Source: Paramecium tetraurelia (lineage: Eukaryota > Ciliophora > Oligohymenophorea > Peniculida > Parameciidae). Taken from it: a stretch of DNA of 64,000 bases. This document shows positions 2,766 through 14,880 of the stretch, one piece after another. The translations under genes were made by a program, and so were the position numbers. Location: assembly GCF_000165425.1 (NCBI RefSeq), contig NW_001799510.1, positions 343,459 through 407,458 of the forward strand. The letters run 5' to 3'. The stretch's first letter is position 1. Every line of letters starts with the position of its first letter. Under the pieces are notes generated by a model that saw only the letters and a list, made by a program, of their open reading frames with translations, was not told the DNA's origin and did not search any database.

Positions 2766-5227
2766 ATGTTTAAAAAAGTAATAAAGTTTCTTTACTCTTA
2801 AAAAATTGATTTGCATTCTGATATTCTTAGTTTAAAGGAAATTTAGTCTGCCATTAAGTCTGTGGTAGAGACTCATGAGGAGAATTTTATTTAGTAAATC
2901 AAAGTAGGGTAATTTAATCCTTAATTGTGGTTGAAAATCAAGAGACATTATATTGAGCCAAATGATGCAATTAGAATTATAAAAGCATTAGGAGAATAAG
3001 ATTAAGCTTAAAGAAATTAATTACTTAATAAAACATAAACCACTTAGGAATTAATAAAGAATGACATTTATAATTATTTTATTAAATATTTTTCAAAGAA
3101 GTATGAAAAATTGACATTCAGTTAAATTGCAATAGTATTAGAATAATATGCATACGTTAAAAGGTTCGATTAAGATTTTTTTCGAATTATGGAAAATGAA
3201 ATATATGATAGATTATCTGATAAAAATGAAATAATAAAATATTAAGATGTCGAAAAGATTTTATGGGCATATTAATATTGTCATTATGGTTCAGCAATTC
3301 TTTATGGTTAGCTGGCATCAGTCATCAAGATTGCTTAGCATGAAATAAATCCCCTGAAACTCGCTTATTATTCATATCTGTATTCTAAATGTCCAGACAA
3401 TCAGAAGGGTGGATTTGGAATATATGCTGTTACCGAGAAATAGGTCTAGCAAAGGATAAGAGATTATAATTTTGCGGATTTTATCAAATTAGCATAGTAT
3501 ATATTTACACCAAATATTTGTTCAAATGCTTTCTAATTAGTGATTGAAGAATAATTGGCTGAATAGTTTCCATCTAACAAAAATTTATTGCCCCATGACT
3601 TAGTTAAACTATGTAGGGCAACTATGAATTATTATTTTAAATATAATGATAGGTCTCTTTAGCATAAAATAGAGGTACTATATATTTGTTATTTTAGGGA
3701 GCTTGCATTGATTTGATCGACAAAGTTAATGATAAATAGTTCTGTTCAATCTTCTGGAGTTTCCTCAAATCAAGAAAAGGAAACGCAGAATTGTATAATA
3801 AGTTTTCAGATTAATTGATTATTAGACAAAATCTATTATCTATTAGATAATTGACTCTATTGTATCTAAACGCTTCAAACAATTCTGAGACTTTTGATAT
3901 ATCAAAATTATTAAATGAAATTATAGTAAAGAAACTTAATGCAGATTAATAATAACAGATTAAACCGACATATTTGGCATATATAACCATTGCCTCTATG
4001 CAATCGAAACTGTAAATACCAATTTAATTAACCTCTGAGCATTTGAAACAGATATCCACTCCTTTAAAAGTAGCCATTTTATAAACTCTTTAAATGTCCT
4101 TACCTCATTTGGATTAAATTAAATTATCCATTTTACTTATACAAAATCTTTAGGAAATTGAATTGCCTTATGAAGATTAGGTCATTCTTCATTATTGTGA
4201 AAAATACTTTTATAAATTCTGCTAGTAAAAGTAGATTCAGATAAAGCAAACGATTCATAAATCGTTGTTTCATTAAGCTTTGTACCTTGATCCATAAAAT
4301 GAGAATCTTCACAATTAATTAATAGTTTTAAACTAATAATATAAGGATGAAATGAGGTTCTTTTTTAAATAGGATAGTTGGGTTGTAATTGCTTGGTGTT
4401 TACTTCAAGAACACTTATTAACAAAGGAAAGAGTAATCAAGAAAGAACTAATACAGGAGGCTTGTATGGGTATTAAGGAATTAGACATAAATACAATTTT
4501 TCATGTTGATAAATATGTAGAGAGCTTATGGATGGTTATTTTGATTGAGAAACTCAATTTAGATGTGGGAATTGAAAAAATCTCTTAATTTATCAAAGTC
4601 TCTCATTATGCTTAGACAAGCGTTTTACTCAACAATTTCAAAGATTCCTAATTGCTGGAACTGAAAGATGTGCTCAAAGAATCATTGTAAAAATAGTGCA
4701 AAGACATAAGCTTAAAGTAGGAGTTCAATCAGTCTTATATAAATATGTTTGATTAAGGAATAGGGATGATGCTTCATGTTACTCATTTAATAAAAACTAA
4801 AACTTAAAATTTAAAATTTGGCTTAATAGTCTTGGATCCTTCAGATTTTGAAATTCAATTGAATGAAGAAAAAAATATTTAAACGAGATTGGGAGAGCAA
4901 GATTATAATTTATTGAAACATTTAAGAAGGGAAAGGTAAATATAAAGGCTTGTCTATGAACAACTTTTCGATTGGAATGTGGAATATATTTATCTTGAAG
5001 AGTTCTAAAGTTACAGCAGAGAATAGCAATTAGAATATTTGGGTAATGTTTTTGGTTTGAATCCACTTGAAGAGGAGGATGTAGAAAAGGTCTCAGAGTA
5101 GAAATCAAAGAAGGGGTTAAACTTTTAGGATAAATTGAATTCATTAAAATAATAGAAGAATAGGAATAGATATGAAAAAACAGAGACTAATGACTTAATA
5201 GAAAATGATCTTAATTTTGATTAGTGA
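2766..5227 (+). CDS. Large alpha-helical protein, 812 aa, unknown function
   Basis: ATG 2766 opens a frame that runs to TGA 5225-5227 with a single 23-nt intron (3675-3697). The product of about 812 residues is alpha-helical throughout and has no membrane segments. It contains recurring helix pairs of the form L...Y.Y.K and A..L..Y, for example EKILWAYQYCHYGSAILYGQL and LVKLCRATMNYYFKYNDRSL. This resembles the loose helical-repeat pattern of FASTK/OPR-type RNA-binding organelle proteins, but that is only an impression. The C-terminus (EYLGNVFGLNPLEEEDVEK, then K/N-rich) is hydrophilic. The start is the first ATG after the upstream gene, 55 bp from the Myb stop. I do not assign a family. Confidence 0.7.
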
Positions 5228-5255
5228 ATAAATATATTTTTTAAATATAATACAT

Positions 5256-6618
5256 ATGCATAATAACTAATAAAATCCTATACAACCAATATGCAACACT
5301 GGGAATCCATAATAATTTCACAATCCTTAAATCAATTTTGTGAATAATAATTAATTACCAACATTTATACAACAACCATAAAATCCACATTTTAATTAGC
5401 TTGTATTTCAACAGGGCCTTCATCATATAGGATAAAATATTAATTAGTAATAATTAATCCATTAAAAAATACATTTCCCATTATTTTTGAAGGATATCGA
5501 AAAATAAGATTTGCTTACAATATCAGGAATTGAGTACAAAAAGTTGAAATTATTAGGCAAAGGTAGTTATGGGTCAGTGTATATGATATAAAATAAGTAA
5601 ACTTTAGAGTTTTACGCTTTAAAGATTTAGACATCCATTCAAAAGGAAGAAGTAGAAATTTTGTCAAGGTTGAAATAAAAAACCTTTAAAAATTTAGTTA
5701 ACACCATAGAATTTTAAAAGCATCCTGAAACCAATGAATATTTTTTATTGATGGAATATTGCGAAAATAGTTTATAAAATATTATCGATTAAAAACCTAT
5801 TGATCACAAAGAGGCTAGATATATAATTAAATAAATAGCCAATGGAATAAAAGAATTACATGAAGAGAAAATTATACATAGAGATTTAAAACCAGAAAAC
5901 ATTCTTGTTTTTGTTAAAAAAGATTAAAATTCCAACATGACCTAAAACATATATAAAATATGTGATTTCGGATTATCAAGCACCAAAGATTTAGCAAAAA
6001 CCTTATAATGCGGAACAGCTCATTATATGCCTCCAGAATAAATTAAGCACTAAAATAATCTATTAGGATATGATTAGTCAGTCGATATTTGGGCTTTCGG
6101 AACAGTGATTTATGAACTATTTACTCAAAAAGTCATGTTTATGAAATCTAATAGATAGGAAGTTTATGAGGAGATCCTCAAAATTACTTAAAAATAGATT
6201 GACGAAAAAATCTAAACCGATTTGAAAATGTTAGATCAACAATATGTAAAGCTAGTTTAAAAAATGATTCTAATTGAACCTTCTTAGAGAATTACAATTG
6301 ATCAGGTTTTAATTGAACTCAAATAATAGAGTACAAATATTGCAACTTATAATGTAAATAAAGAAAATATTATAAAAGCCAAAAAAACAATGTAAAAAAC
6401 AGAGAAGCATTTCAGAAGGAAATAGGGAGAAAAATTAGAATTAACAGCAAGTACAGAATAATTTTCATACTGAATAATAAGCATTTTGTTAGAAAAATGA
6501 GCAAATCAATAATTAAAATAATAAAGCTCATATTTTTATTTAGTAAAAATAAGTGAATTTAACTTAATTTAATTAATAAAAGGTTTTTCAATTAAAAAGG
6601 CAATAATCACCAAAATGA
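5256..6618 (+). CDS. Serine/threonine protein kinase
   Basis: 445 residues with one 25-nt intron (6354-6378); without splicing the frame ends at 6471-6473, and splicing restores a longer Q/N-rich tail. After an N/Q-rich N-terminus of about 90 residues comes a complete kinase domain: glycine loop LLGKGSYGSVY, ATP-binding lysine in FYALKI, catalytic loop HRDLKPENIL, DFG in KICDFGLSS, and activation-segment end GTAHYMPPE (PPE in place of the usual APE), followed by DIWAFG. All catalytic residues are present, so it should be active and phosphorylate Ser/Thr. The subfamily cannot be assigned from the sequence alone. The start is only 28 bp after the preceding stop. Confidence 0.9.
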
Positions 6619-7178: not shown

Positions 7179-10100
7179 ATGTATTAGCAGCGTAGCACTG
7201 TTGGATAGTCTATCTTCTAAAATGATATTCCCACTTAAAACATTAACCCAAATGATGTTATGATGTAAAATATGATGAAAATGTTTTAATCTCAAATGAT
7301 TTCAATGATGCAAAGCCATTCATCTGGTATAGAGATTTATTTATGTAGGATTCGATTTGGAGAAATTTTATATGCATAAAGTGAATGATATGAATTAGTT
7401 TTATAATTAAGTGAAACCAGATGAATGTTAATTGTAGCAAACCTCCCAATTCATAAATGCTTATAATCCAAATAAATATTATGAAGTATTCCAAATAATA
7501 ATATTAGGAAACCTATACAAATACAAATAGATAGCTAAATTTTGATGATATCCCTGTCTCAAATACTAACAACAACGAATTCCAAGATTACAATCTTTAA
7601 TAAAATGAATATTTTAATCAACAAAAGAATAATAATCAAGATTAAAAACCAAGAGGTTCGTAAAAATAGGTTGAAAGAGGATATTATAATCAATTTGATG
7701 ATGATTAAAATTCAATCAGACAATCCTCACATAATTTTGAGAATGAAGATTACAATAGACATTAATCAAGGTAATTTATGAATTCAAACATCAATTAAAA
7801 ATAATCCAATAATAATAATGATCAAACTAATAATAAATATAATAATCAAAGAAATTAAAATAATGAAAATAATTATTAAAAAAATATAAATAGAAGTCAA
7901 TATAATAATGAAGACAATTAATATCGAAAGCAGTCTAATCCTTTTGATGAAATGCCGATCAAGCCAATGCAATAGAATCAATTTGAAGATAATATGATTA
8001 ATCATAAATAGCTCGAAGATATTTCCAACACAATTAAAAATGAAGATTATAATAGAAAAAATTCTGAAATTTTCTAAGAAATATAAAGAAAGAATAGTTA
8101 AATGGAAGAATAACCAAAAAAAAAGTTGAATTATTAAAATTCGTATGATGCTTTTGATGAAATGCCAATTAAACCTACAAAAATTAATGTTTTTGATGAA
8201 ATGCCTATCAAACCAACTAAATAAAATACCTTTGATGAAATTCCAATAAGACCTGCTAAACAAGGTACCTTAGAGGAAATTCCCATAAGACCTGCTAAAT
8301 AAAATTCCTTTGATGATATTCCTATAAGACCTGCCAAATAAAATTCATTTGATGATATTCCTATTAAACCTACAAAATAAAATGTTTTCGAAGAAATACC
8401 AATCAAAACTGCTAAATAGAATGCTTTTGATGATATTGCAATAAAACCTACAAAAAAAAATTCATTCGATGAAATTCCAATTAAATCCAATTATCAGAAT
8501 TAAATAGAAGATTAAACTAATGGATACTCTAAATAAAATAATTAAGTGAATGAAAGAGCTAAATAAAATTAAAATGCAAAACAATAACCTAAATACTAAG
8601 TTGAGGATAATCAAATGAAAACCTATAAAAATTATGAAGAAATATCAATAAAATCCACAAAGCATTAAAATTTGGACACATTACCTGAAAGAAATCCTTT
8701 TCAAAGACAGTAAAATGAAAATTTAGAATAAAATCATGAAGGTTAAGTAAATGTTAAGAAAAAGCCTTTTTTGAAAAAAGGTACAAGATAATTTTTATCA
8801 AATGCATAATAAAGATCGGACATAGCAAAAAAGGAACATGAAGATATTATGAAAGAAAATAATGCAATTGGTAATCCAATTATGCAGAACTAAAATTTTT
8901 AGGCTAAACCATAAAAATCATCTATTCCTTCAAGATTTGAAAAATAAGAGTAGAGAGAAGTGTAAAATAAAACAAAGCGATCAGAAACACCTAAAGAATA
9001 GCCTAAGCCAAAGTCATAAAATTAACAATAAAAGTAAAAAGAACATTAAAAATAGTAAGAAAGTTAATACTCACCTCATCTTTCAAGTAAAGAGTATTAG
9101 TTTGATAATAATGAAGATTGGAATAAGGAGTAAACTACTTAAAATTAAAAAATCACTTCTTCTTATTTTGGTTTAAAAAAAGAGGTTAAAGTTGAGAAAT
9201 CAAATCATTCTGAAAGTGAAGAGGATAGTACAAAAAATTAAGTTTAAGATAAAATAAGTAATCTTAATATGGAAATAGCTAAATTTAAAAGTGAAAATGA
9301 TAAATTAAAGAAAACATAAGGAAAATATGAAGAGTTATTAAAGTAATTATAAAGGGAAAGAGATGAATGGGAAAAGTAAAAAGAAAATGAGAAATTGTAA
9401 TTGGATGAATGGAAAGAAGAAGAGAAAAAGAAAATGTTGAGAGAAAAAAGAGTGTTTGAAAGATAAGCAAAGTCTAATTAAAGCATTCCCAATAGAAAGG
9501 AAAAGGAAGAGATAGAATAACTTAAATAACAAGTTTAGAAATTGTAGGAAGAGTAAAAACTTAAAGATTAAAAAAATAAATTGGCTTATGATAGAATTAG
9601 GAAATAATATGAAGAAGTAAATCAAAAGAATCAAGACTTATAATCAGAACTAAAAGCATTAGAATTAAGACTTTTAGAATAAAAGAAACCCTCTTATGTG
9701 TAATCTTAAACTTCAATTTAACCAAATAAATAATAATAGATACAAATTAAATAAAATTAATCAGTCATATCATAAAAATAAGAAGTTCCTCCTTAAAAAT
9801 TAAGAAATCAAAGTCCTCAAAGTGTTCCTGATGATTAATCATTTAAAGAAAAAAAATCAATATAGGATAGGAAGAATTATTATTTAGATGAAGATGAAGA
9901 TGATTTTGAAAATGAAAATGAAAATGAGAATGATGATTACTAAAAAAACGATGAGGAAGAAGATGATGATGATAATTAAAGTGATGCATTATCTGAGAAG
10001 TATGAAGATATAATGGAGAAATCAATGACTTAAAAATCTAAAACTAATATTTCAAATTAATAAAAATAAAAAAAATACGATTTAGTAAGTATGCAAGATC

Positions 10101-10705
10101 AAGACATACCATTTACGATAAAAAACATAAATAATTTAATTAGTGAATAAGAATTCATATATGATTAGAATCGCTTTTATTTAATGTATAAGAGAAATAA
10201 GGAGTTGCCATCTAAAATAGTTAATTAGAATGTAGGTTCTGATGGGAAGGTTTCTAGATAGTATGCAAACGGAAAAAAAGAAGTAGTTTTTCATAATGGA
10301 GTCAAAAGAGAAGTGTTCCCTGATGGATATGTAATCGTTCATTTTACTAATAAAGATGTAAAATAGACTCTACCAAATGGAACAATAATTTATTTTTTTG
10401 CAGATGCCCATACAACTCAAATAACTGTACACAGTGGTCCAAATGTAAGATATTTGTCTTATTATTAGATTTATAGATTTTCGAATTAATAGATTGAAAT
10501 CCATTTTGCAGATGGTAGAAAGGAGATTAGGTTTGGAGATGGCACTGAAAAGTATATCTCAACAAATGGCGAAGAATAAACCTTTTTCAGTGATGGCATT
10601 ATCCAAAGGATAGATAGCAAGAAAATAAAATAAATAGAATATCCAAATGGAAATATTGATATAATATATCCTGATGGACAAAAACAAAGATAAATTAAAA
10701 AATGA
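7179..10705 (+). CDS. SAS-4/CPAP (CENPJ)-type centriole protein
   Basis: 1160 residues with two clear 22-nt introns (7327-7348, 7486-7507) and a probable in-frame one at 10445-10468. Order: a Met/Gln/Asn-rich N-terminus, nine 13-residue repeats (residues about 310-425), a basic Q/N-rich linker, a long coiled coil (about residues 680-840: KLKKTQGKYEELLKQLQRER onward), an acidic stretch DEDEDDFENENENEND, and a C-terminal domain of G-box repeats. The last contains SDGKVSRQYANGKKEVVF, FPDGYVIVHF, FADGRKEIRFGDG and YPNGNIDIIYPDG. Coiled coil plus this TCP10/G-box C-terminus is the hallmark of CPAP/SAS-4, which builds centrioles and basal bodies; a ciliate needs it for its thousands of basal bodies. 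I did not see a recognisable tubulin-binding PN2-3 motif. TGA at 10703-10705. Confidence 0.85.
8150..8500 (+). repeat. Nine 39-bp tandem repeats encoding 13-residue units
   Basis: Inside the SAS-4-like gene, nine consecutive 39-bp units encode variants of x-FDE-(M/I)-PI-(K/R)-P-(T/A)-KQN. The first is AFDEMPIKPTKIN and the last SFDEIPIKSNYQN. More decayed copies occur before (PFDEMPIKPMQQN, about 7949) and after (about 8636). Unit length is exact throughout, codon usage varies at silent positions, and the Phe-acidic-acidic, Pro-Ile-basic and Lys-Gln-Asn positions are conserved, which argues for selection on the peptide. Confidence 0.95.
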
Positions 10706-10816: not shown

Positions 10817-13053
10817 TCATTTTTTTTTTGGAACTTAGAGCTATATCGGTAATGGAATTTTAATCTGCTATCTCAAGGCATTAAGTTCAATAAATTAAGG
10901 GTGGACTTACATCTATTTGGGAGCCAGAAACTTTTAAAATGGTAAGGTTTTGCACCATCCTCTGGGTAAAAATTAATTATGAACAATTTCTATTTGGATT
11001 AAATATGTAAACTTACTTTCTTGCTATTCATACTTTTATTAATCATGGCAATCTAATTCTACAACACTTAGTTTTCTAGTAGAAGTGTTACTCCTTTTTC
11101 CTAAAATAGCAAAATATTGTATTAATACATACTTGGAGGTTCAACAATCTTTGGATCTTAAGAAATAACACTAGTTTTTCTAATATAACCATAGGCTTAG
11201 GAATGATTTTACTGCTGTTGTTATTGCTCTATGTTTTAATTCAAGATATTGTGAAGGCTGGGAGTAGTGCCACCATTGTGACTACTTAGTCTGTGAACAG
11301 GGGATTAGTTAGATGGAAGTGGTTTTAACACATTCAATTATGAGGCAGTATTCAGAAATGGTATGGATTACTAAGGCTAGATGAGATGTGGTTGAGATTG
11401 TTGTTATTATTAAAATTAAGTGAGAGAAGCCAACTAAATTTTCTTAGGAGATTCAAATTGTTTGTTCTCTACAAGAGTATTCATCAGTTATTTTGGATTA
11501 TTGGCTGTTGTGGATCTAGATCTCTATTGTAGGTCAACTGAACTGTTGTTCTATTTTTTTGTATTAATAAATTAAACAATCTTTTTGGTCTTCTTCTTAT
11601 TTTGATTGCTTCTTTTGATAATAATAAGTTTGCCACTATTTGATTCAGCACACTCCTATGCATCCTAAATACTTTATTAAGAAACAGAACGCTAAGAGCC
11701 TTCGGTTTACTGATGGTTGTTATTGGAATTGTATTAATTGAGTATATTTTCATCTGCAATTTAGCTATTATTAGGTTAGTCAAGGTATGAGTCATGCTAA
11801 TTTCGAGATGGATCAATCAATCGTTTTAAAATACTTTAATATTTTGGAGTTTCAACTCTATGGTTGTGATTATGTTGTCTTGATTTAATTTATGCATGCT
11901 CTGCCATCATTTCCTTAACATATGACTTATCTAGTAAACTTTATTATTATTATTACTATTAATGAACCTATGAAATTTTGTTACACTAAAGTAATAGAAG
12001 AAAATATTTACTTGTTCTAAATAAGATGAATCAATCTTCTTGGTATTGACACATCTCCAATAGTCCTTTGACATCATCCTAATTACCATCAAAGCCTTAA
12101 TGATTCTTGTTACACGTTCTCTCATCGAGAAGGACTTATACATCTCAGGCAAGGAGAGTGGGATAGGATCATTGACCTTTCCAGTAATCCATGGATGATG
12201 TAAGATCTGATGCGCATTATATCTATGCATAGGGTCCTCAGCAACACATTTCAAGAACAGGTTCTTGGCCAATTAATCAAAACCATCAGGGAAATTCCAT
12301 TGTGGGTTTTGTATATGATCGTACAATTTTTCTCTATATTCCTCAGCTGTTTATCCTTAGACATACAATGGATGCTTCCCATTAGTGCAGACCATGTACA
12401 ATATGATTCCACAACTCCAAATATCAACTGGCTAGTCTATCGATTAATATATTTACTTTAGAGTAATGCTTGCTAGTGAAGAATTCTGGAGCCATGTAGA
12501 TGAGAGTGCCACATTGGCCGCTGATGAGAAGCTGAGATCGAGTTGACAATCCAAAATCTACTATTTTCAAAGTGGTCATATCGTTAGGGTCTTCAAGTAA
12601 AAGGTTCTCTAGTATACATACAATCCTCACCTCAGGTTTAATGTCTCGATGGACTACTCCTCTTTCATGGATGAATGCAACTGTCTTGAACAAGGTTTGC
12701 ATAAATTGTCTTTTCTTTTCGTAACTCAATTCAATTTTGTCTGTAAATAATCTTTTCAATTGTCCGTACTTGACCAAAGCCATTTCGATCAATAATCTTG
12801 TATCGGTCTCATGTACTCTCTTAAATTAAACAATATTTGGGTGCTTCATCTGACTCAAAATGCTTGCTTCAGCTAGTATTTCCGAATAGCTTCTTCTACA
12901 TTCTCTCTTGGGTACTAGTTTAACAGCTACGCTTTCTCCTTTGATGTTCTTTGCCTAAACTACCTTACCAAATCCGCCTGAGCCTAGAAATTCTTCGAAT
13001 TCGTAGAAGTCACTAAATTTATTTGCAACATCTCCAGAATCAAGATCATTCAT
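10817..13053 (-). CDS. CAMK-like protein kinase with long Q/N-rich tail
   Basis: 700 residues once five introns are removed (12607-12630, 12432-12456, 11986-12011, 11101-11132, 10990-11016). The kinase domain occupies about residues 18-275: FLGSGGFGKVVQAKN glycine loop, VAVKLVP lysine, HRDIKPENLLL, KIVDFGLS, GTLIYMAPE, PVDIWSCGIILYM, and an HPWITG-type end. These match calcium/calmodulin-dependent and CDPK-type kinases, but no EF-hands follow. The C-terminal 350 residues are low-complexity, rich in Q, N, S, P and T, and lack a known domain. Residues for catalysis are intact. Its start codon overlaps the stop of the LRR gene upstream. Stop at 10817-10819, 111 bp from the convergent SAS-4-like gene. 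Confidence 0.9.
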
Positions 13054-14880
13054 TTAGAAATAATTATATATTAAAAAATTTCATTAATCAGTTCCTTTCT
13101 GAATCTCACATTATAATTCAATCTTTTACTGTCAGCAATCACTGCACTATACAATAATTTTCGTTTTTATTTTTAATATTCTCTTGTTATTTTTTCGAAT
13201 AATCTTTCCTTAGTGTTATTTTGATCTTCTTATAAGATAAAATTTTAGAAATTATTGATGTTTATAATTTTAAATGGATTACTATATAAAAGAGAGACAG
13301 CATCTGAAAAAAGATAATTTAAATTATCGTCAGTAGTCTCCAATAAAGTAATGTGGTTCAATACAGGATTGAAAATCGAAGTTGTGATTTGATAATTAAA
13401 GGTATATAAATCCAAAACATTTACTATTTTATTGTTTCTTATATTTAATTCCAAAACGTTCAAATTTGTTAACTATTACAGAGATCGATATATTTTATTT
13501 AACAAAATATCATTTATCACCAATCTATCATTTTATAAATCTAGCTGAAATTGATAATAAAATATACTTGTAATTAAATTAATTTTTGTAATTCACTTAT
13601 TTAATTAAATACAAAATAATAGCTTACAGGTTTCAACATCATTTGATTTTATACAATCAATTAGAGCTATTTCATTTCCTTAAAATCAACTATAGTTTTT
13701 AATAGAATGTCGAAATTAAGCTCATCACATTAGATTTTATCAAAATTTAAATTCATTTTTTTTAAAGACTTCCTCAATTACCATTCCTTAGACAAAAACT
13801 CAAACAATTTACCAAAATTACTAAACTGTTAATCCTTAGTCTCCACAGTCTCTATAAATTGTAATTACACAGTGGAAGGATCAATCTTCCAAGATAGATT
13901 TATTGACATTAATTAATCCTTATCCTTATAGATCTCTAAATATTATTAATTTTATTTACTTGTCATTACTCTCATCTGTTTGTAATTATCAGTTGTTCTA
14001 TCGCAAGTTGGGTTATTTTGAATAATAAATTCTTATGTGTTTAATCCCCTTATCTTTTCCATAAACAAATTCAATAGAAAACTTTATTTCCATTAGATCT
14101 TCTCTAAATCTACATCAGTACCAAATAGACGTAGATTATTTAATGTTATACTAAGTTAAGAATTTACCACTTTGCTGTATGCTTCATTATTTGCGTATAC
14201 GAATCTGCTGTCAAGAATTTTAAGGTTGGGAAAGTTCTCAGCATTCTATCCCAAATCATTCAAGTTATTTATTTTATTACACCATTGTATGATGAAGGTT
14301 TCTAAATATGGCCATTATAATTTGGAGATGTAAAATATGCCCTAATTATCAATTTTAGTGTGACTCAAATCTAAATACTTGATTATTTGATTCCCTTGAA
14401 ATAAATACTCCAAGGAACTAGAAGTCATTGATTAGCAATTTAAAGTTAAGATTGTTAGTTTTTTAAAACAATTTGATAAACCTCCCTTTTTCAGAAACAT
14501 TTCAAATTTAGAATCAGTGATATCGATACTGACCAACTTTAATTCTACAAGTCCACTTAGATCGAACTTAATTAAATTCTTAATAATTTTTGGATGAGGA
14601 TTCTTAATATTTTCCAAAGCTATTTTTTTCAAATTTTTGTTATTGTATCTCAACGATTATTTGAAATCCTTATAATCCATGATGTTTGAATAAAAGATAT
14701 CATTCTAAGAATTTTATAATAAATTACTAAATTATGCAATGATTTTGTGTTTTGGATACCTTAGTCATTTTGATTCTTCACACTATATTTCATCTACTTT
14801 TCCTCCTCTTCTTTTTATGCTTACCCTGATAGGATTGAGTCAAATAAGCTTAATTATTTTGTTTATGTTGTTCTTCTCAT
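13050..14880 (-). CDS. Leucine-rich-repeat protein
   Basis: 594 residues after removing introns 14705-14727 and 13545-13567. The start chosen, ATG 14880 (MRRTTQTKQLSLF), gives an unbroken frame; a shorter start at 14793 is possible. Irregular LRR-type repeats are visible, such as LSGLVELKLVSIDITDSKF, LTILTLNCQSMTSSSLEYL, IIKYLDLSHTKIDNQGIFYI and LTNLNVLELNIRNNKIVNVL. There is no signal peptide or membrane segment, so a cytosolic protein-interaction role is likely. The last codon TGA (13052-13050) overlaps the ATG of the downstream kinase. Partner unknown. Confidence 0.75.

Follow-up and report, generated by a model that had tools for sequence, protein, structure and literature searches.

A tandem motif array in a Paramecium SAS-4/CPAP-like protein and its likeness to the N-terminal stretch of the tubulin-binding PN2-3 domain

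In a 64,000-nucleotide stretch of the Paramecium tetraurelia genome (the window), a gene for a SAS-4/CPAP-like protein carries a tandem array of 13-residue units ahead of a SAC-like loop. The array unit appears to be homologous to the N-terminal stretch of human PN2-3, a relationship that has good support at the level of motifs; the claim depends on short motifs in a conserved order and on a bridge through paralogs, and not on a database match. We think it fairly probable that this N-terminal, beta-tubulin-capping stretch has been multiplied in Paramecium to form a flexible, multivalent comb that precedes a single SAC loop, with tubulin binding by the copies presumed from the likeness to the human domain.

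The SAS-4/CPAP-like gene and its repeat array

The frames of the window, whose G+C content is 27.7%, are open once TAA and TAG are taken as glutamine, and the gene was read in this way (Table 1). With splicing deduced from the sequence, the product comprises about 1152 residues when the 24-nt third intron is spliced and 1160 residues when it is not. Reading through this intron adds eight residues (VRYLSYYQ), which fall opposite an 8-residue gap of the vertebrate G-box 4ld1. The corresponding site bears introns of 25, 26, 23, and 23 nt in C14, C143, C222, and C181, respectively, i.e., in four of the five paralogs described below, and no intron was found at this place in C200 by the same pattern. 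The intron lies within the G-box and is stop-free, and an open-reading-frame reader passes through it. Protein-kinase-like genes, named by eye, flank the SAS-4 gene at 5139-6473 (+) and at approximately 12000-13080 (-).

Table 1. Coordinates of the features of the SAS-4/CPAP-like gene in the window.
Feature	Position	Strand	Basis or remark
SAS-4/CPAP-like gene	7179..10705	+	Read with table 6; exons 7179-7326, 7349-7485, 7508-10444, 10469-10705
Intron 1, 22 nt, GTA..TAG	7327..7348	+	Frame and ends
Intron 2, 22 nt, GTA..TAG	7486..7507	+	Frame and ends
Outlying motif copy FDDIPVS	7541..7561	+	Aligned copies FDDIQIT/FDDIQVT in C200/C14
Outlying motif copy FDEMPIKP	7943..7966	+	Same FDEMPIKP at the corresponding site of C200 and C14
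Array, nine 13-residue units xF[DE][DE][IM]PI[KR]PxKQN	8150..8500	+	Tandem Repeats Finder and translation
Degenerate copy YEEISIK	8633..8653	+	Translation
LDTLPER, possible decayed SAC-proximal copy	8672..8692	+	Alignment only, with FDEMPPK/FDEMPPR of C200/C14
SAC-like tubulin-binding loop KKPFLKKGTRQFLSNAQQR	8759..8815	+	F of PFLK is the human F375 equivalent
Charged region, coiled-coil-looking	9243..9690, limits approximate	+	By eye from translation
G-box / TCP domain (PF07202)	10232..10702	+	Pfam and PDB chain matches
Intron 3, 24 nt, in frame, without TGA	10445..10468	+	Paralog homology

The C-terminal region of the product matched the Pfam model PF07202 (Tcp10_C) with an E-value of 1.2e-15 and 57.3 bits against a cut-off of 36, and the CPAP and Sas-4 G-box chains in the PDB matched the gene with E-values of 7.9e-25 to 3.5e-11. 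On this sequence evidence the gene encodes a ciliate SAS-4/CPAP, as the preliminary description had held, and its G-box is clear. The G-box used as a query against viral contigs gave seven pattern matches, with no relative among them. A published study of Paramecium Sas4 reportedly exists; the open-licence literature gave no match to PtSas4 by name.

Tandem Repeats Finder reported a period of 39 with 8.7 copies at 8148-8485 (0% indels, score 291). Under table 6 this region reads as nine adjoining units of 13 residues, with starts at 8150, 8189, and so on to 8462, with no frame break and with the consensus x-F-D-[ED]-[IM]-P-I-[KR]-P-[TA]-K-Q-N, the ninth unit being degenerate at its end (KSNYQN). 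The nine exact 39-bp units announced earlier for 8150-8500 were thus borne out, and the outlying degenerate copies mentioned with them are present at 7541, 7943, and 8633. The copy at 7943 shares all eight residues of FDEMPIKP with the first unit and differs from it at four synonymous sites. Across the six frames of the window the pattern [DE][DE]xP[IV][KR] had nine matches, every one of them within the SAS-4 gene (raw counts, without a shuffled control). In the protein, the array lies upstream of the SAC-like loop, a coiled-coil-looking region recognised by eye, and the G-box.

The units differ from one another preferentially at synonymous sites (pS 0.535, pN 0.201). The ratio of 0.38 was not reached in any of 2000 neutral simulations, which followed a star model from the consensus, a simplification. 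This comparison of synonymous and nonsynonymous variation, which had been proposed together with the array, suggests that the array is under purifying selection.

Paralogs, copy numbers, and history of the array

A protein search of the genome itself (a 69.07-Mb assembly of 231 contigs, from which all the paralogs were taken) yielded 15 matches, which fall at six loci: the window gene (C189), C200, C14, C143, C222, and C181. Between the SAC and the G-box intron, identity is 0.88 for C200 and C14, 0.91 for C143 and C222, and 0.64-0.66 for the window gene compared with C200 and C14; it falls to 0.39-0.43 between these two groups and to 0.28-0.32 in comparisons with C181. C200 and C14 look like a whole-genome-duplication pair, and so do C143 and C222. 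By eye, the former two have flanking genes in common, including one resembling a Rab geranylgeranyltransferase, and the latter two have a common BRCT-like neighbour.

That the array should recur in close relatives was confirmed on these paralogs of one assembly, the two closest genes, C200 and C14, both having it. One regular expression applied to the open frames, which takes in degenerate copies and misses others such as FDDIPRKP and FDEVPMKT of C200, counted 12 motif copies in the window gene, 13 in C200, 17 in C14, one each in C143 and C222, and none in C181; the corresponding counts for [FILY][DE][DE]xP were 10, 13, 15, 1, 1, and 0. A stricter form of the motif retained 9, 7, and 12 copies in the window gene, C200, and C14, respectively, i.e., 28 of the 42 copies. 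Position 1 is F in 40 of these 42, where the pattern permitted only F, L, or Y. When the array consensus was submitted as a query against the genome, the 11 matches at E-values up to 10, among the best candidates scored, all fell in the window gene, C200, and C14.

The spacing of 13 residues accounts for 8 of the 11 intervals in the window gene, 5 of the 12 in C200, and 10 of the 16 in C14. A run of nine such intervals is found in C14, and spacings of 12 and 13 are mixed in C200; spacings of 12, 14, 15, and more residues also occur in the array genes. The unit length given in the preliminary description is therefore the commonest spacing in all three genes but is not strictly kept: the 13-residue pitch is preferred and is not a strict ruler.

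Between paralogs, the core of the motif (F[DE][DE]xPI[KR]) and the linkers have changed at different rates. For the window gene and C14, pN is 0.111 in the cores (pS 0.72) and 0.445 in the linkers (pS 0.59), and for the window gene and C200 the values are 0.141 (pS 0.63) and 0.407 (pS 0.62). The contrast is smaller between C200 and C14 (pN 0.096 in the cores vs. 0.187 in the linkers), and it is somewhat inflated throughout since the cores were chosen by motif and an alignment of arrays can slip. The high pS values indicate that the arrays did not arise recently. On the simplest history, the motif expanded once, after the split from the C143/C222 group and before the window gene parted from C200 and C14; alternatively, C143 and C222 may have lost the array.

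Relation of the unit to human PN2-3

The SAC-like loop that starts at 8759 (KKPFLKKGTRQFLSNA) resembles the human SAC loop (KQPFLKRGEGLARFTNA), in which F375 is required for tight tubulin binding (PMC4912634). Among the three array genes the loop is 90-97% identical over 30 residues, with pN values of 0.014-0.049. When the Paramecium SAC was set into a human-context chimera, the score on PF25779, the Pfam model of PN2-3, increased by 15.2 bits (from 59.8 to 75.0), compared with an increase of 35.5 bits (to 95.3) with the human SAC. The proline preceding the F375 equivalent is not invariant, PFLKKG being replaced by EFLKKG in C143 and C222 and by AFLKKG in C14.

In C143 and C222, the single copy (FDEIPIKG) reads IFDEIPIKGAQKPFEQLLQDQ and stands directly before a LID-like segment and the SAC-like loop, and then KKEFLKKGTRQFLSNAQ is read; EFLKKGTRQFLSNAQ starts 27 residues past the proline of the copy. 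In human PN2-3, IEERPIK lies before the helix and PFLKRG follows 48 residues past the proline; by our own count from the numbering of the paper (helix from F338, EE343/344, F375), IEERPIK corresponds to residues 322-328. A single BLASTP comparison of the C143 stretch plus SAC with the last C200 copy plus SAC gave 56% identity over 66 columns (E = 2e-20). As a query against the genome, C143 found C200 (1.9e-11) and C14 (2.6e-11), and the window gene was matched only from query residue 33, at the SAC. The LID before the SAC can be made out clearly in C143 and C222 and partly in C14 and C200, but it is not recognisable in the window gene.

An 8-column matrix made from ten copies of the window gene found its best site in human PN2-3 at IEERPIKA, with a score that 277 of 20000 shuffles reached. 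The same site was chosen by a 7-column matrix made from 24 distinct copies of five genes (361 of 20000), and a 12-column matrix matched human PN2-3 less well (1344 of 20000). The order of two blocks, EERPIK and then TFEDYLEEQ, was equalled in 5 and 4 of 20000 shuffles for C143 and C222, 242 for C200, 74 for C14, and 4002 for the window gene. The four-block order of PN2-3 was equalled in 0 of 5000 shuffles in each of the five genes, the window gene included. The order tests carry an ascertainment bias, as the segments were picked around FLKKG and the cores by motif, and C143 and C222 are near copies and not independent.

The preferences of PF25779 were also compared with the unit. Of the six residues placed behind PIK, the model scores P above A, S, T, G, and W (PIKP, 93.4 to 95.3 bits), a probe that was not blind because this P had been chosen in view of the array. 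It tolerates D in place of E and R in place of K (96.5 bits with DDRPIKP and 95.3 with PIRP) and disfavours I or M at its consensus R, by 4 to 5 bits. A C143 segment replacing the human stretch and the start of the LID scored 66.7 bits, compared with 46.9 bits without it and 44.6 to 54.9 bits for eight shuffles; the match starts at the I of PIK and thus supports the LID part more strongly than FDE.

No PF25779 match was obtained in the window gene (5'-truncated open frame, E up to 1; parts, E up to 10) or in C143, C222, C181, C200, and C14. The genome search with this model found nothing, and the controls in it also gave no match. Profile comparison with human PN2-3 by hhalign aligned the SAC alone (P 0.0036, probability 9%). 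A phmmer search of the PDB with the C222 region returned no CPAP chain, and PDB searches with the array alone, with region 8459-8852, and with an array profile gave 0 matches each. In plain alignment to human PN2-3, 1325 of 2000 shuffles were as good as the whole window protein, 94 of 2000 as good as the SAC alone, and 197 of 2000 as good as the LID part; for the human 21-residue stretch against the window protein the number was 2815 of 5000. A soft-gap alignment near the SAC was equalled by 19 of 2000 shuffles, and the SAC-adjacent segments of the five genes by 33 to 238 of 2000. Two Pfam families scored on the array stretch and were set aside as repeat or composition noise: the cytomegalovirus family PF06084 (22.0 bits, cut-off 20.2) fell to 13.0 bits on a longer stretch, and the Mu-like family PF10122 (20.7 bits, cut-off 22.9) fell to 16.5.

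Human CPAP/CENPJ PN2-3 (PF25779; PDB 5ITZ, 7Z0F, and 5EIB) and the Paramecium proteins share, in the same order, an acidic pair-x-P-I-K, a LID (clear in C143 and C222), and a SAC of the common pattern [PEA]FLK[KR]G..F..NA; a charged, coil-like region and the G-box come after these. They differ in that the human protein has one IEERPIK stretch, against about 12 to 17 copies in each of three Paramecium genes, and in that the human stretch has R before P and I at position 1, whereas the Paramecium copies mostly have I, M, or V before P and F at position 1. It had been thought that known CPAP proteins lack such an array. This applies to the multiplication of copies, the human protein having one such stretch; the motif as such is not foreign to the family, as it occurs once in each of C143 and C222 and has a probable counterpart in the human IEERPIK. 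The divergent sixth G-box protein, C181, contains EDNRPIQ...YLKKKG at about position 3032 of its locus and is perhaps a strongly diverged bearer of PN2-3, a weak case in view of the 38 of 5000 shuffles that equalled its four-block order and the approximately half of the shuffles that equalled its alignment.

Possible function of the array and competing explanations

In human PN2-3, the LID helix caps the exposed longitudinal face of beta-tubulin and the SAC binds the outer face (PMC4912634, PMC11756378). The N-terminal part, PN2-3N (residues 323-361), binds tubulin weakly with a Kd of 68 uM, and vinblastine displaces it; in combination with the C-terminal part it increases the affinity about 140-fold, and the whole PN2-3 binds at 25.6 nM (PMC4912634). 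PN2-3 of CPAP/Sas-4 controls the length of centriolar and ciliary microtubules in human cells and in flies (PMC4912634).

Multivalent binding to tubulin or another centriole component had been suggested from the repeat, and the tubulin version gains support from homology, as the unit corresponds to the N-terminal part of PN2-3, the domain through which SAS-4/CPAP proteins themselves bind tubulin. In the proposed mechanism, each F[DE][DE]xPI[KR] copy would be a weak, interchangeable ligand of beta-tubulin, and a row of such ligands before one SAC loop would work through avidity. CPAP is said to converge structurally with vinca-domain inhibitors, and the vinca site is presumably where the N-terminal stretch itself lies. 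A comb of about a dozen copies would raise the local tubulin concentration or grip several tubulins or protofilament ends together, with the SAC and the G-box anchoring the protein at the growing centriole wall. Each of the three array genes has a SAC-proximal copy that strays from the consensus (FDEMPPK in C200, FDEMPPR in C14, and, by alignment, LDTLPER in the window gene), as though the copies upstream of it had taken over.

More tentatively, the array may be the tubulin counterpart of a WH2 comb, by which one SAS-4 would load or cap several centriolar microtubules, with the copy number setting the avidity; we regard this as possible but rather doubtful. WH2/beta-thymosin arrays are likewise short, disordered, monomer-binding motifs in tandem with flexible linkers, but they bind actin and are unrelated in sequence, so that the analogy is confined to the mode of action. 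Tau/MAP2 repeats and TOG arrays are alike in being repeated units that bind tubulin or microtubules; they differ in that the former are lattice-binding repeats of 31-32 residues and the latter folded domains, and neither are ligands of the exposed longitudinal face. The 13-residue pitch could match the hooks to neighbouring sites. Thirteen residues span at most about 49 Å and protofilaments are about 50 Å apart, and the lateral protofilament geometry speaks neither for nor against bridging.

If the homology holds, a minimal core of the element (the acidic pair and P-I-basic) has been kept outside animals, and if the comb reading is true, it would be in keeping with a cell type that makes basal bodies by the thousand. 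Genes with 1, about 12, 13, and 17 copies in one genome would form a natural series in which the role of the element and the tuning of tubulin delivery by valency can be tested. Titles and abstract openings in the open-licence literature contained no report of such an array in Paramecium or Tetrahymena Sas4 or of multivalent vinca-site repeats, a result that speaks for that literature and does not establish absence from print.

The comb reading has as its main competitor a view in which the array consists of linear motifs for another centriolar or ciliary partner (an adaptor, a kinase, or a phosphatase) and the likeness to PN2-3 is due to chance or to descent without tubulin binding. We consider this unlikely. 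It would account for the off-consensus SAC-proximal copy of the three array genes (in the window gene by alignment), for F at position 1 where the human stretch has I, and for the human stretch aligning to the window protein no better than shuffled sequence. On the other hand, the P-I-[KR] core with its preceding acidic pair is the very part favoured by PF25779, the array consensus led to three SAS-4 loci only among the best candidates scored, and the copy of C143 and C222 stands just before the LID-SAC unit.

The other three explanations considered are disfavoured. A functionless expansion of low-complexity sequence by replication slippage appears improbable: neighbouring units are slightly more alike, and the surroundings are Q/N-rich with other small repeats, but the low pN/pS among units, the contrast of cores and linkers between paralogs, and the retention of the array in three genes at core and linker pS values of 0.5-0.7 all stand against neutrality.

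Still less probable is a ligand in cis, in which proline motifs of the array would fill the STIL-binding groove of the same G-box protein. The groove is kept. Of the eight STIL contacts described for the zebrafish protein (F978, Y994, Y996, H1003, T1005, F1015, Q1019, and E1021; PMC3776556), six are identical in the window gene as counted on the PDB alignment, and Y996 is replaced by F and H1003 by Q. The STIL consensus for the G-box, PRxxPxP (PMC3776556), is however absent from the array, PKEQPKP, the protein's sole P[RK]xxPxP match, lying outside it, and the unit has no conserved second proline. Furthermore, the genome encodes two STIL_N proteins (PF15253; C206:46500-52500, E = 2.6e-11, and C97:4500-10500, E = 9.0e-11), so that a partner of the G-box in trans probably exists. 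The pattern P[RK]xxPxP had no match in the open frames of these two genes. Both STIL_N-like frames have, downstream, a proline-rich KQPPVPQPLD, which may serve as a ligand of the G-box despite having no PRxxPxP.

The least credible explanation is an array of SH3-type ligands, in which the units would present P-I-[KR]-P-x-K as PxxPx[KR], the pattern of SH3 class II ligands: the window protein has six P[IV][KR]Px[KR] matches, but the pattern occurs once in C200, twice in C14, and not in C143, C222, or C181, and the acidic pair, which SH3 binding would not need, is conserved. The acidic and Pro-Ile-basic positions that had been regarded as conserved in the unit belong to the constrained core; the second proline is found in just 12 of the 42 copies.
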